DNA from: Deltaproteobacteria bacterium
GTDB taxonomy: Bacteria > Desulfobacterota > Binatia > UBA9968 > JAJDTQ01
Direction: 5' to 3'
Assembly: GCA_028821115.1 (NCBI GenBank)
Contig: JAPPHF010000146.1
Span: 1 to 43,080, forward strand
Length of the DNA: 43,080 nt
A program made the translations under genes and the position numbers. Of this stretch, positions 5,404 to 11,493 are shown in pieces. The notes under the pieces are model-generated. The model made no database searches. It worked only from the letters and a program-made list of their open reading frames with translations, and had not been told where the DNA came from. How positions within the stretch are numbered: the first letter of the stretch is position 1; the number at the start of each line of letters is the position of its first letter.

Positions 5404-6267
5404 CTACCGGCTCAGAATGATCGAGATGGTGCCGGTCATGACCGCGAAGGTGCCGGTGACCGTGCGGGTGTTGATGCGCTCGAGGCCGCGCAGGAAGACC
5501 ACGGTCAGGATCAGGGTCCACAGGGGACTCGAGGCGACAATGGGAGACACCACCACGACGCGGCCGAGGCTCACGGCGATGAGCGACAGCAGCGAGCCGG
5601 CGGATTCGAAGAAGCCCGAAAGGATGAACGGGGGCACGGCGCTGCGGCTGAGCACGAACTGCTCGGTCCGGAGCCGGACCTGCACGTACGGACCCAACGA
5701 GACGAAGGACACGATGGCCAGGATAGCGGCGAAGTACAGCGGTTCGTTGGAGATGTCGAAGGCGATGCGCCTGATCGGGAAGGCGACGCCCGCGAACAGG
5801 GCCGCCAGGAGCGAGAAGATCCCCTCCCACCAGCGATAGCGCAAGCCCGATTCCGCCGGCTGCCAGGAGATCAATGCGATGCCGCCCACCACCAGAAGCG
5901 TCCCGGCGATGATCCCCAGACTGGCCTGCTCCCCAAGAAAGACGATGGCGATGACGGCGCTCCACAGCGGGTAGGTGTTGCGCAGGGGCTCGGCCCGTGC
6001 GGCCCCCAGCCGGTGAATGCCGGTCAACTGGAGAAGGCTCGTGGCGGTCTGCAGCACTCCCAGTCCGACGAACAGCAGCAACGGCGTCCATTCGACATGG
6101 GGAATCCCGCCCATCAGGAACACCCCGCTCCAGAAGACGACGGTGCGCAGGCAGAGCAGCACGCAGGCCGCGGTCAGCGGCGATGAGTGGTGCATCCCCA
6201 TGCGCGCGGTGATAGTGCCTCCGGAGTAGAGGATGGCGGCGGCGAGGGCGATGAATTCAGGACGCAT
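5404..6267 (-). CDS. EamA/DMT-family transporter
   Basis: About 10 hydrophobic segments, FLGEQASLG and SPLWT motifs; start at MRPEFIALAAAILYSGG. Confidence 0.85.
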   Translation of the reverse strand: MRPEFIALAAAILYSGGTITARMGMHHSSPLTAACVLLCLRTVVFWSGVFLMGGIPHVEWTPLLLFVGLGVLQTATSLLQLTGIHRLGAARAEPLRNTYPLWSAVIAIVFLGEQASLGIIAGTLLVVGGIALISWQPAESGLRYRWWEGIFSLLAALFAGVAFPIRRIAFDISNEPLYFAAILAIVSFVSLGPYVQVRLRTEQFVLSRSAVPPFILSGFFESAGSLLSLIAVSLGRVVVVSPIVASSPLWTLILTVVFLRGLERINTRTVTGTFAVMTGTISIILSR

Positions 6268-6423
6268 GGGGTGAAGCGAGCGGGTCAGGTACCGGCACGC
6301 GCCAACCATCGACGAGTTGATGGGACACGCATGTGTAAGCCATGGAGGCACACCCGCCTGCAAAGTGATGTGCCGCGGGTGAGAAAGCTCGTCCCCCGGC
6401 GGTCAGGCGGACACGATCACAGT

Positions 6424-6708
6424 TCAGTTGTCTGCCTGCACCAAGCCGACGGTCAGCCGTGTGCCGGTAGCTTCTGCGTAGCGACGCAAGGTGGCAAAGG
6501 AAGGTGACACCCTGCCGCCTTCCAGCCGCGCGATGGCGGACTGGGTCGTGCCGAGGCGTTGGGCGAGTTCCGCTTGCGTCAGCTTCGCTTCCGTGCGAGC
6601 ACGAACCAGTGCCTCGATCAGCTTGAACTCGTCATCGGCCCGCGCATATTCCTCCCGGAAGTCGGCGTCTTCCATGTAACGCTTCTTCAGGTCCTTCAGT
6701 TTCGTCAT
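6424..6708 (-). CDS. XRE/HigA-type HTH antitoxin or regulator
   Basis: RTEAKLTQAELAQRLGTTQSAIARLEGGRVSPSFATLRRYAEATG. Start set at MTKLKDLKK; the ORF track N-terminus is out-of-frame toxin sequence. Confidence 0.88.
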   Translation of the reverse strand: MTKLKDLKKRYMEDADFREEYARADDEFKLIEALVRARTEAKLTQAELAQRLGTTQSAIARLEGGRVSPSFATLRRYAEATGTRLTVGLVQADN

Positions 6709-6863
6709 GGCATCACCTGCCTCATACGTTCTCGGGCCGTCACGAGCGCCCGCCGTGGCGTCTTCCGCGACTTCTTCGCGAAGACGTGGAGAACAACCAC
6801 CCGCCGTTCCGTCGCCGTCACGTAGATCCCCCATAGTATAGCGCGTCTGCTATATTCCTTCAA
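6705..6863 (-). pseudogene. RelE/HigB (phage Gp49-like) toxin, C-terminal remnant lacking its N-terminal half
   Basis: Manual translation: LKEYSRRAILWGIYVTATERRVVVLHVFAKKSRKTPRRALVTARERMRQVMP*; ATGA overlap with the antitoxin start; tctB ends just upstream at 6889. Confidence 0.7.
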
Positions 6864-6888
6864 GCCAAATTGTCGGGAACCCGAGGCC

Positions 6889-7350
6889 CTACAGCAGCGG
6901 CAGGATGGCGCCGAACAGCACGCCTTCGAACAGCGTCCGTTGCAGCACCAGCTCCAGGCTCACGTATACCAGCGCCCACACCGTCCCGGCAGCAACCGTG
7001 CACCGCGCCCAGGAGAGCCGGGCGAAGCTGCGCAGGAACAGCACCATGTAGATGGGGATGGTGAGCTGGAAGCCGATGAGGAGCACCAGCACGCAGAAGA
7101 CCCCGAGCCACGCCACCACGGGGGCGGCCTTGGCCCAGGGCGCCACCTCCACGGAGTCGTCCGGGGCCGCGCTCGGGTAGAGAAGCTCGCGGCCGAGGCA
7201 GAACAGGATGAACACCAGGGTCGGGATTCCCAGCACCAGCGGCACGAGCCCGCCCTGTCCATCGAAGCCGAAGGACGGGATGACCACCAGCAGCACCACC
7301 GCCAGGTAGAGCAGGTTGACGACCACATAGCTGTAGTTCACGCGGTTCAT
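6889..7350 (-). CDS. tctB: Tripartite tricarboxylate transporter small membrane subunit, TctB family
   Basis: Four hydrophobic segments; FGFDGQGGLVPLVLGIPTL and LFEGVLFGAILPLL C-terminus; ATG overlaps the tctA stop by 4 nt. Confidence 0.85.
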   Translation of the reverse strand: MNRVNYSYVVVNLLYLAVVLLVVIPSFGFDGQGGLVPLVLGIPTLVFILFCLGRELLYPSAAPDDSVEVAPWAKAAPVVAWLGVFCVLVLLIGFQLTIPIYMVLFLRSFARLSWARCTVAAGTVWALVYVSLELVLQRTLFEGVLFGAILPLL

Positions 7351-8831
7351 GGTTTCGGCGTCGAACGGGTGCGCATCCGGGTAATCAACGGGACCGCCAC
7401 CATCGTCACGATGAGGATCCAGGAGATGACGCTGTTGAAGAAGCCGAGATAGCTGCCGTCGTGGATCCTGAGGGTCAGCAGGAACGACTTCTCGGCGAGA
7501 TTGCCCAGCACGAAGCCGATGACCAGCGGCAGCACCGGCACTCCCGCCCGTCGCATGCCGAAGCCGAGGATCCCCAGCAGCACCACCAGCAGCACGTCCC
7601 AGATGTTCTCGCGCAGGATGTAGGTCCCTGCCAGCGCCACCACCGCGATGATGGCGGAAAGGTAATGCACCGGCACCCGGGTGATGATGGCCAGGTAGCG
7701 GGCGGCCAGCAGGCCGAAGATGCTGGCGAAAGCGTTGGAGACCACGTAGCCGTTGAGCAGGGTCCAGATGAAGATGGGGTTGTCGAGAATCAACTGCGGC
7801 CCGGGCGAGACTCCGTGCATGATGAAGATGCTCAGCAGCAGCGCCATGGCCAGGCTGCCGGGAATGCCGAAGCTCAGGGTGGTCAGCAGCGCGCCGCCGT
7901 CCTTGGAGTCGTTGGCCGCCTCGCTGGCGATGACGCCCTCGGGATTGCCGGTACCGAAGGTGTCGGGGCTTCTGGAGGACTGCACGGCCACCGTGTAGGC
8001 GATGAGGTTGGCGGTCTCGCCGCCCACCCCGGGGATGATCCCCACCAGGGTGCCGATGGACGAGCTGCGCAGCAGGCAGACCGCGTAGCGGAAGTTCTCC
8101 ATCACCCCCTGCCACGCGCCCCGGATGCTGGCCTGGATGTTGTCGCGCGCGATGGTGCCGCCCTGGGCCGAGTAGTTGATCAACTCGCCGATGGCGAACA
8201 GCCCCACGAAGAACGGGATCAGCGGAATCCCGTCCCACAGGTACTCGCTCCCCATGGTGTAGCGGATGAGCCCGGTGGGCTCGTTGAGGCCCACCAGGGA
8301 CAGCAGGATGCCGACCCCGCCGGCGATAAGCCCGTTCAGTAGCGAGCCTTGGCTCACCGTGGCGGTAGTGACCAGCCCGAACACCACCAGCCAGAAGATC
8401 TCGGGATGACCGAAGGCGATCACCAGCGGGCGCATGATCTGGATCAGCAGCGCCAGGATCACGAGCCCGAAGAGCGCCCCCAGCAGGCACGCCCCGGCCG
8501 ACAGCCCCAGCGCCCGCGCGGCTTCGCCGCGCTTGGCCATGGGGTAGCCGTCGAAGCAGGTGGCGGCGTTAACCGGGGTGCCCGGGGTGTTGAGCAGGAT
8601 GGCGCTGATGGAGCCGCCGAAGGAGCTGGCGCCCATGATGCCGGAGAACAGGTAGACGGCGGTGATGGCGTCCCAGGTGAAGGTGAACGGCAGCAGCATC
8701 GACATGGCGAGGATGCCGCCGAGCCCCGGCACCGCGCCGAAGATCAGGCCGATGACGCTGCCGAAGAACAGCGTCAGAAGGACGTGCGGTTCGGCGATGG
8801 TGACCAGCGCGGCGCCGAAACCTTCAAACAT
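7347..8831 (-). CDS. tctA: Tripartite tricarboxylate transporter large permease, TctA family
   Basis: GAVPGLGGILAMSMLLPFTF, AILLNTPGTPVNAATCFDGYPMAKRGEAARALG, FGIPGSLAMALLL. Confidence 0.95.
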   Translation of the reverse strand: MFEGFGAALVTIAEPHVLLTLFFGSVIGLIFGAVPGLGGILAMSMLLPFTFTWDAITAVYLFSGIMGASSFGGSISAILLNTPGTPVNAATCFDGYPMAKRGEAARALGLSAGACLLGALFGLVILALLIQIMRPLVIAFGHPEIFWLVVFGLVTTATVSQGSLLNGLIAGGVGILLSLVGLNEPTGLIRYTMGSEYLWDGIPLIPFFVGLFAIGELINYSAQGGTIARDNIQASIRGAWQGVMENFRYAVCLLRSSSIGTLVGIIPGVGGETANLIAYTVAVQSSRSPDTFGTGNPEGVIASEAANDSKDGGALLTTLSFGIPGSLAMALLLSIFIMHGVSPGPQLILDNPIFIWTLLNGYVVSNAFASIFGLLAARYLAIITRVPVHYLSAIIAVVALAGTYILRENIWDVLLVVLLGILGFGMRRAGVPVLPLVIGFVLGNLAEKSFLLTLRIHDGSYLGFFNSVISWILIVTMVAVPLITRMRTRSTPKP

Positions 8832-8927
8832 GAATACGTGTGTCCCGGGTCACGACGAGGCGGACTACCGCACCGGCAAGGCCGCCGCGGACCGAGCACG
8901 GAGAGGGCAGGGCATGGACGGAAGTAC

Positions 8928-8963
8928 CGCGACACGGTCCCGCGCGTGCGGGACCGTGTCGCG
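8928..8963. other. Strong stem-loop between tctC and tctA (16-bp perfect stem, 4-nt loop)
   Basis: cgcgacacggtcccgc-gcgt-gcgggaccgtgtcgcg. Confidence 0.85.
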
Positions 8964-8977
8964 AGCAGGCACGGGAA

Positions 8978-9970
8978 TCACTTGATGTACTTCTTGAGCA
9001 ACGCGGAGTTCTTCTGCACCAGGGCGAGCATGTCGGCGACGAGCTTGGTGGTGTCCTGCTTGCTCAAGGGCGCGACGATGTTGCCGTTGGCCTCGATCTT
9101 CTCCTTCAGCGCCGCGTCGTTGTTGGCCTTCACCAGGGCCTCTTCTATGACGGAAGCGATCTCGGGAGGAGTCTTGGGCGGCAAGGCGTAGAGGTTCTGT
9201 CCCACCAGCGAGGACGACCCCAGTTCCGGGAATCCCTGCTCCACGCCCGTGGGGATGTTCGGGAATTTGGGATGCCGTTTCGGCAGGTATACGACGATGG
9301 CCTTGGCCTCGCCCGACTGCACCGCGGTGGTCCAGCGCTTGACCAGCGGCAGGTTGGTGATGGAGAAGTCGCCGCGGATGATGCCGGTGATCAGTTCGGG
9401 GCCCTTGAAGCCGGCGATGAACTCCACCGGGAAGCCCACCAGGTTGGCGGTGATGACCGAGATCGGGAACGTGTTGCCGCCGGTCCCGGTGATGCCCGCC
9501 TTGATGGGCTTCTTGGCCGTCTTCATCTGCTTGAGCGACGTCCACTGGTCCTTGCCCGCCTTGGTGGTGGCCTGCATGAAATACGGGTTGGACACCTGGC
9601 GTCCGATCCAGGTGAAGGTCCGCAGGTCGGGGTCCATTCCCCGCGCCGCCTGGTTGACGGCCTGCCCGGGCAGGTTGATGGCGGCCATGGTATGGCCGTC
9701 GGGCTTGGACCGGTTGAGGATGGTCACGGAGTTGCGTCCCCCGGCCCCCGGCACGTTCCGGATCACCACGGGCACGCCCAGTGCCTTCGACATCACCTCG
9801 CCCTGGAGCCTGGCGGCTGTGTCCATGGCGCCCCCCACCGAGAATCCCACCAGGATGGTGACGGGCTTGCTGGGTTTCCACGCGGCCGTCGCCGGCTTCG
9901 CCGCCAGCGCCAACGCAACGGCTACGAGCATGACGAGGCACGCTTTGCTCAACGTATTCAGAATGCGCAT
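8978..9970 (-). CDS. tctC: Tripartite tricarboxylate transporter substrate-binding protein (TctC/Bug)
   Basis: Signal peptide; KPVTILVGFSVGGAMDTAARLQGEVMSKALGVPVVIRNVPGAGG; NRSKPDGHTM. Confidence 0.93.
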   Translation of the reverse strand: MRILNTLSKACLVMLVAVALALAAKPATAAWKPSKPVTILVGFSVGGAMDTAARLQGEVMSKALGVPVVIRNVPGAGGRNSVTILNRSKPDGHTMAAINLPGQAVNQAARGMDPDLRTFTWIGRQVSNPYFMQATTKAGKDQWTSLKQMKTAKKPIKAGITGTGGNTFPISVITANLVGFPVEFIAGFKGPELITGIIRGDFSITNLPLVKRWTTAVQSGEAKAIVVYLPKRHPKFPNIPTGVEQGFPELGSSSLVGQNLYALPPKTPPEIASVIEEALVKANNDAALKEKIEANGNIVAPLSKQDTTKLVADMLALVQKNSALLKKYIK

Positions 9971-10080
9971 AACGGGCTCCTTTCGGGTTGACGAGAAACC
10001 TTTTCAGGCCACATTTCAGCGGCGCGTGGCAGATTCTTACACTCCTTCGATTCCCGGTCAAGGTGTCGCCGGGTGGGGCT

Positions 10081-11493
10081 CTAACGCAGCAGCGAGCGGT
10101 CGAAGGGCGCCAGCAACCCTTCCAGTCGCACCTCCCGCACCTTGTCCTGGGGCGGCCGCGCCCGTTGCGGGTACTGGACCGGCGGCGCCGGCTTGGTAGC
10201 GTCCAGGATCATCACCGCGCCCATCACCGGCTCGTGGGTGCCGTCCACCGTATAGGTCCAGTTGGACGGCAGCAGGTCGCCCGGCCCGTTCCAGTCGGGG
10301 ATCGTGAGCACGTCCTTGTCCGGGCGCATGCGCGTCCCCACCGCCCAGGTCACTTCGGGCTCGTTGAACACGTTGATGTCGTCGTCCACCACCACCACGC
10401 AGCGGAGGTTCTCGGGCTCCGTCGAGATGGCGGCCATTGCGGCGCGTTTGACCTCCGAATCCCTGGTCTTGCGGATGGAGATGTAGCAGTGGGTGCGCGC
10501 GTGGGCCGGCACGTTGACGTTGACCACGCCGGGAACGGCCTCCCTGACCCGCCGGTAGATCGTCCCCATGCGCGGCAGGCTGCCCAGCACCAGGTGTTCC
10601 TGGCCCGCGGGAAAGACGTCGTAGTAGATGGGGTTCCGGCGCATGGTCATGGCCGACACGTGCATCACCGGCTGCGCTCCCACGCTTACGTAGTAGCCCG
10701 TCCACTCGCCGAACGGACCTTCCAGGCGGGTCTCGTCCGGCAGGAGCCGCCCTTCGATGACGATCTCGGCGTGGGCCGGCACCATGAGGTCCACGGTCTC
10801 GGCCCTCACCAGCTCGATGGGCTCTTGCAGGAGCGCGCCCGCCTCGGCGAACTCGCCGCCGATGCCCGGCAGCCGCGACACCGCCCCCAGCATGAAGGTG
10901 GGGTAGTGTCCGATGACCAGGGCGAACTCGGTGGGCTCGCCACGCTCGGAGTTGCGCCGGTAGATGTAGCCGCCGTGGTGGCTGCCCTGGATGTAGACCC
11001 CGAGAGTCCGGGGGTCGTGGACTTGGTGGCGGTAGAGCCCCGCGTTTTGGGCCCCGGTATCAGGGTCCTTGAGGATCATGACGCCGCCGGTGATGTACGG
11101 CCCCGCGTCGAGCTCGTTGTGGAACGGAATGGGCAGGGCCGACAGGTCCACCGCGTCTCCCTTGAGCACCACCTCCTTCACCGGCCCGTCGCTGACGGTC
11201 TCCGCCTGAATGGGGTTGGCCTGCCGCTCGCCGTAGACCCGGGCCATGTCCGGCACGCTGGTGCCCAGGGCCAGCGCCAGCCGCTCGTAAGTGGCGGTCA
11301 GGTTGATGACCAGCGGCATGGACGAGCCTTCCACGTCGGTGAAGAACAGCGCGGGAACCCGGCCGTCTTCGGCGAGCCTGTCGGCGATGGCCGTGATGTC
11401 GAACTCTCGGTCCACCCGCCGGGTGACCATGTGGATCTGGTCCGCCGACGAGGCCGCCAGTTGCTCGATAAAGGCGCGCAGGTCCTTCGCCAT
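10081..11493 (-). CDS. UbiD-family (prenylated-FMN) decarboxylase
   Basis: EGPFGEWTGYY, HHGGYIYRRN, GVVNVNVPAHARTHCYISI and VDDDINVFNEPEVTWA motifs. Confidence 0.93.
   Translation of the reverse strand: MAKDLRAFIEQLAASSADQIHMVTRRVDREFDITAIADRLAEDGRVPALFFTDVEGSSMPLVINLTATYERLALALGTSVPDMARVYGERQANPIQAETVSDGPVKEVVLKGDAVDLSALPIPFHNELDAGPYITGGVMILKDPDTGAQNAGLYRHQVHDPRTLGVYIQGSHHGGYIYRRNSERGEPTEFALVIGHYPTFMLGAVSRLPGIGGEFAEAGALLQEPIELVRAETVDLMVPAHAEIVIEGRLLPDETRLEGPFGEWTGYYVSVGAQPVMHVSAMTMRRNPIYYDVFPAGQEHLVLGSLPRMGTIYRRVREAVPGVVNVNVPAHARTHCYISIRKTRDSEVKRAAMAAISTEPENLRCVVVVDDDINVFNEPEVTWAVGTRMRPDKDVLTIPDWNGPGDLLPSNWTYTVDGTHEPVMGAVMILDATKPAPPVQYPQRARPPQDKVREVRLEGLLAPFDRSLLR

Follow-up and report, generated by a model that had tools for sequence, protein, structure and literature searches.

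Whether antitoxins that have lost their partner are selected shields or mere leftovers is a standing question, and it is raised again by a locus of the window analysed here (the whole stretch of 43,080 nucleotides), in which a complete antitoxin gene follows what appears to be the end of its toxin. The minus strand carries, in this order, tctC (9970-8978), tctA (8831-7347) and tctB (7349-6889), all three named after the tripartite tricarboxylate transporters that they resemble (the TctB match is below the Pfam cut-off), then the toxin remnant (stop at 6705), the helix-turn-helix (HTH) gene and an EamA-like transporter frame. Within 5404-11493, the tctC-tctA-tctB genes have the appearance of an operon, with the EamA-like transporter downstream and a UbiD-type decarboxylase-like frame (10081-11493) upstream.

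The antitoxin (6424..6708, minus strand) is a full-length, HigA-like protein of 94 aa with an XRE/Cro-type HTH, which matches HTH_3 (5.5e-13), phrog_1373 (7.7e-27) and, in a phmmer search, the HigA chain 6af3_B of Streptococcus pneumoniae (1.5e-6). The S. pneumoniae HigBA structure 6af3 is the sole solved relative of both the intact toxin and the antitoxin in phmmer searches at the thresholds used, and NCBIfam and PADLOC added nothing specific. Being a full-length XRE HTH protein that overlaps the remnant by ATGA and has homologues behind full toxins, it belongs with the HigA-type antitoxins and, without an intact toxin beside it, also with the orphan ones; its identity to antitoxins adjoining intact toxins is 86-89%. 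The earlier note had seen here an intact antitoxin beside a beheaded toxin, and both frames, with their ATGA overlap, are indeed present. The predicted Shine-Dalgarno sequence of the antitoxin, AGGTGA (6713..6718, minus strand), lies intact at -10 inside the toxin remnant, and most intact relatives, like most deletion variants, have AGGTG at this position before the antitoxin start.

The frame preceding the antitoxin encodes 52 aa (6705-6863, minus strand). It had been described as missed by the ORF track, which is correct only in that it falls below the listing length, as it is listed when the minimum is set at 40 aa. The peptide matches PF05973 at 8.1e-10 with 39.1 bits (cut-off 23.9) over profile positions 48-89 of 90, in agreement with the proposed resemblance to the C-terminal part of Gp49 toxins, and it also matches the last 40 positions of PHROG 2523. 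Thus, it passes the membership cut-off of PF05973, but it does not contain a complete domain with the catalytic residues, nor is this a HigBA-type type II toxin-antitoxin module with both genes complete, the toxin lacking its first ~66 codons. In the genome bin (2.2 Mb, 195 contigs, 77% complete) this peptide is the only PF05973 match, and no intact cognate toxin was found elsewhere.

Relatives encode a full toxin of ~107 aa at the same place, which indicates that the protein is normally longer than the short form. The antitoxin has counterparts 81-89% identical in two genomes of the same genus and one of the same class; those of G007 and G057 are preceded by a toxin of ~107 aa, and in G005 the toxin is frameshifted. 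The intact toxin covers all 90 positions of PF05973 (2.9e-26). DNA similarity between the window and the full toxins stops at 6832, so that the remnant proper (6705..6832, minus strand) comprises the last ~41 codons and the stop of a Gp49/HigB toxin. The reading of the 52-aa peptide as toxin is consequently valid from ~6832 onwards and fails for residues 1 to ~11 (LKEYSRRAILW, 6863 to ~6831), which are translated promoter/operator DNA; when the operator-derived residues are removed, PF05973 positions 55-89 are still matched at 1.1e-9.

This non-toxin stretch reveals how the toxin was shortened. A consensus scan predicted a core promoter, TTGAAG-N17-TATACT (6835..6863, minus strand), with one found against 0.2 expected, and this promoter is conserved in relatives. 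Overlapping it is a predicted palindromic operator, TATAGCAGACGCGCTATA (6837..6854, minus strand; TATAGC-N6-GCTATA), present at the same place in 22 of the 24 intact relatives of the close set described below. According to the DNA alignment, TTGAAGGAATATAGCAGACGCGCTATACT in the window, formed by the -35 box, the 17-base spacer and the -10 box with the palindrome overlaid, is the counterpart of TTGAAAGAACATAGCG..GCGCTATATT before intact toxins. The palindrome is separated from the antitoxin start by 145/146 bases in the window vs 344-347 in those 22 intact modules; the operator being 200 bases nearer the antitoxin, it is deduced that the operon has lost 200 internal bases, which begin just behind the -10 box and reach toxin codon ~66. 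The junction (6832..6836, minus strand), with toxin codons 1 to ~66 missing, lies in or beside a G run. In the window ATGGGGGATC comes immediately after the -10 box, and the distal site of the nearest relatives has the sequence TAGGGGGATC, so that the deletion may have made use of a short match within the G run. The absence of the N-terminal half had thus been correctly recognised, although it had been deduced from the mere 26 nt between the frame and the tctB stop. Truncation by tctB or by the surroundings can be discarded, given that the module has kept its own promoter and operator and that the gap is internal. The source is a metagenome-assembled genome, and the 200 bases could have been removed by an assembly error; this is very improbable, taking into account the clean junction inside a 43-kb contig and the many unrelated genomes with other deletions of the same module.

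What the remnant could still do was approached by mapping its residues onto S. pneumoniae HigB (6af3) through a phmmer alignment, an offset of 20 residues bringing the chain into register with the numbering of the paper. D61, E66, R68 and R73 of that toxin are equivalent to D50, E55, R57 and R66 of the G007 toxin; all four equivalents are lost from the window remnant, in which the position of G007 R66 reads W, and those of F90 and K92 are kept. Four of the six catalytic-site positions are gone, both key arginines among them. In S. pneumoniae HigB, R73A brings ribonuclease activity down by ~70%, and R68A and F90A lower it as well (PMC7984235). Residues F17, M20, D40 and L44 of this toxin, which contact HigA, fall in the lost half. 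The remnant should then be neither toxic nor able to bind the antitoxin. The TTG of the remnant falls within the -35 box, and a longer, 136-aa frame (6424..6834, minus strand; in the ORF list with its translation), which extends the antitoxin 42 codons upstream, has its ATG right against the -10 box, so that the local transcript should contain neither start. The 136-aa frame is probably not the true gene, since its ATG comes directly behind the -10 box and would precede the transcription start. A short toxin that still works, or that has become a modulating protein, would be consistent with a frame intact to its stop and a conserved tail, but it is scarcely credible, the remnant having lost most of its catalytic positions and the region known to contact HigA, its TTG start being placed where the local promoter would not transcribe it, and no relative examined having the same short form.

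The preferred explanation is a solitary, autoregulated antitoxin, which the sequences make highly probable. The locus is a type II operon of the Gp49/HigBA kind in reverse order (toxin first) that has lost the 200 bases between its operator and codon ~66; the sequence shows promoter, operator, antitoxin Shine-Dalgarno and the full antitoxin frame still in place, and the toxin start, its N-terminal half and most of its catalytic positions removed. The antitoxin would be transcribed from the old promoter, with the remnant acting only as a 5' leader that bears the ribosome site, and would bind the operator and repress its own expression, probably less tightly than a toxin-antitoxin complex. This last point follows from what is known in other HigBA systems: in Acinetobacter baumannii, autoregulation by HigA with HigB as co-repressor has been established (PMC5906591), and S. 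pneumoniae HigBA binds DNA more tightly than HigA alone (PMC7984235). The earlier note had offered two roles for the antitoxin. A stand-alone transcription regulator acting on other parts of the genome would suit an XRE-type HTH, and such a regulatory role has been put forward for orphan antitoxins (PMC12654330, PMC10790755), but TATAGC-N6-GCTATA occurs once in the genome bin, even with up to one mismatch allowed, precisely at the promoter of the module. Furthermore, all the matches to a slightly shorter palindrome pattern adjoin module copies in the eight genomes tested, seven of which are further genomes. Since the sole operator palindrome of the genome is the module's own, regulation of other genes is very unlikely, and the other role, an anti-addiction or autoregulated relic, would fit better.

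To establish whether the loss is peculiar to this genome, 84,980 species genomes were scanned with the antitoxin, giving 80 loci, most of the upper half being 79-89% identical. They are labelled Alpha- and Gammaproteobacteria, Acidobacteria, Chloroflexi, Binatia, Nitrospinae and others (bin labels can err). Among them is a sponge symbiont by its title, Spongia_Bin9, and MPMX bin65 and MPMI bin18 are sponge symbionts from Aplysina aerophoba (PMC5649159). No gene order is shared with the relatives, even within the genus: DNA similarity between the window and 45 loci is confined to the module, its limits being the antitoxin stop at one end and the edge of the deletion at the other, and the upstream flanks of intact copies are alike only from about the -35 box. 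The module is a bare cassette of ~660 bases lying in unrelated places. The same ~660-base cassette is seen in L032-L073, with antitoxins 79-89% identical, labels from many phyla and no shared flanks, and one contig bears two module copies with equal scores ~7 kb apart (G091:C46:548-1143 and 7436-8031). Related toxins exist on plasmids, the nearest one, on an Acidiphilium plasmid, being 67% identical to the G007 toxin; viral contigs gave only distant antitoxins (<=46%), and the phage toxins among the matches listed reach about 40% at most. The near relatives across phyla and the Acidiphilium plasmid toxin show that cognate toxins circulate. When 148 genomes of the class were searched toxin-first, no strong full-length toxin match without an adjacent antitoxin was found.

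In the close set (~50 loci with antitoxins mostly at least 79% identical), an open full toxin is present in 24 loci, a frameshifted one in 5 and a partly deleted one in 8, while 11 have no toxin and 2 end at a contig edge, that is, 24 intact vs 24 broken or missing toxins, bearing in mind that frameshifts in bins can be errors and that a search by antitoxin under-counts lost antitoxins. Loss events are fewer than defective loci, because these include two orthologous pairs (L064/L077 and L061/L174). The deletion end points differ widely, the distance from operator to antitoxin being 39 bases in L042, 47 in L059, 82 in L174, 145 in the window, 184 in L087, 190 in L060 and 246 in L045. On the antitoxin tree, which takes in some more distant loci and has many weakly supported branches, there are at least 17 changes between the intact and the lost state. 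The same kind of toxin loss has taken place many times in relatives of the module, in several phyla and with known sponge symbionts included.

A rival explanation is pure decay: in a dying module, the toxin would be lost first, since no cell would survive losing its antitoxin before the toxin, and the antitoxin, left without any role, would be the next to go. This possibility comes close to an even chance, as the order of toxin and then antitoxin is expected without any benefit, the deletion in the window looks recent, and two defective relatives have damaged antitoxins (L061 without its first residues, L080 without seven internal ones). Against it, nearly all 24 toxin-defective relatives keep a full-length antitoxin. 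Selection was estimated by pairwise dN/dS, which for the antitoxin is about 0.08-0.13 between the window and its near relatives. The remnant gives mostly 0.1-0.3 (three operator-derived codons included) vs medians of 0.12-0.13 for intact toxins; with its tail about as constrained as intact toxins, the deletion is probably recent, and the constraint on the antitoxin could then all predate it and says little about later selection. The L061/L174 antitoxins, the one pair that may have a loss in common and is diverged enough to be measured, have a dN/dS of 0.27 (p = 0.0025 against neutrality), which speaks against pure decay, with the proviso that toxin loss before their split is unsure. L061 and L174 are orthologous solitary antitoxins upstream of a DNA ligase-like gene (ligA), and in L061 the operator lies almost directly on the antitoxin, whose first residues are missing.

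Returning to the solitary, autoregulated antitoxin, its most likely role would be that of a harmless leftover able to neutralise incoming or related copies of this mobile module and to repress their operator (anti-addiction). That it is a selected shield as such is a serious possibility, judged somewhat short of even. The best hint for it comes from one genome, G094, whose toxin (78%) has its own operator before it, no adjacent antitoxin and an altered C-terminus, and which carries two stand-alone antitoxins elsewhere (loci L173 (G094:C18:420714-423025), 1001-1312; L174, 1001-1282; and L073). If this toxin is active, the distant antitoxins must restrain it. It can be proposed, tentatively and with more doubt than confidence, that toxin loss with a kept autoregulated antitoxin has been selected repeatedly, protecting against new copies in communities, such as sponge microbiomes, where the module passes between phyla; if so, G094 would exemplify protection in trans. 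The family offers a natural series from many phyla, with about 24 close relatives whose toxin is defective, their deletion end points varied, and 24 whose toxin is intact, and the retention of the operator and the ribosome site in several relatives makes the shield question testable on one family.

Regarding known systems, the HigBA modules of S. pneumoniae (6af3/6af4, PMC7984235) and A. baumannii (PMC5906591) resemble this one in having a Gp49-type toxin first, an XRE-type HTH antitoxin second and palindromes in the promoter, and both module proteins match the 6af3 chains (phmmer). They differ in that the window toxin is beheaded and, in the case of S. pneumoniae, in having four palindromes instead of a single one within the -35/-10 region. 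Chromosomal CcdA of Erwinia chrysanthemi, an anti-addiction antitoxin for which neutralisation has been demonstrated (reviewed in PMC7354431), is alike in its proposed role, that of a chromosomal antitoxin acting against an incoming toxin, but it belongs to another family, and neutralisation by the window antitoxin is only inferred. Partnerless antitoxins have been described in Klebsiella pneumoniae (PMC7192599), E. coli (PMC10790755) and marine MAGs (PMC12654330), and proposed to be relics, regulators or anti-addiction elements. An orphan antitoxin is therefore an already known kind of gene; in contrast with these cases, the window preserves the broken partner, the operator and the exact deletion, and its module has lost the toxin repeatedly across phyla, this repeated loss in a cross-phylum cassette being the interesting part.
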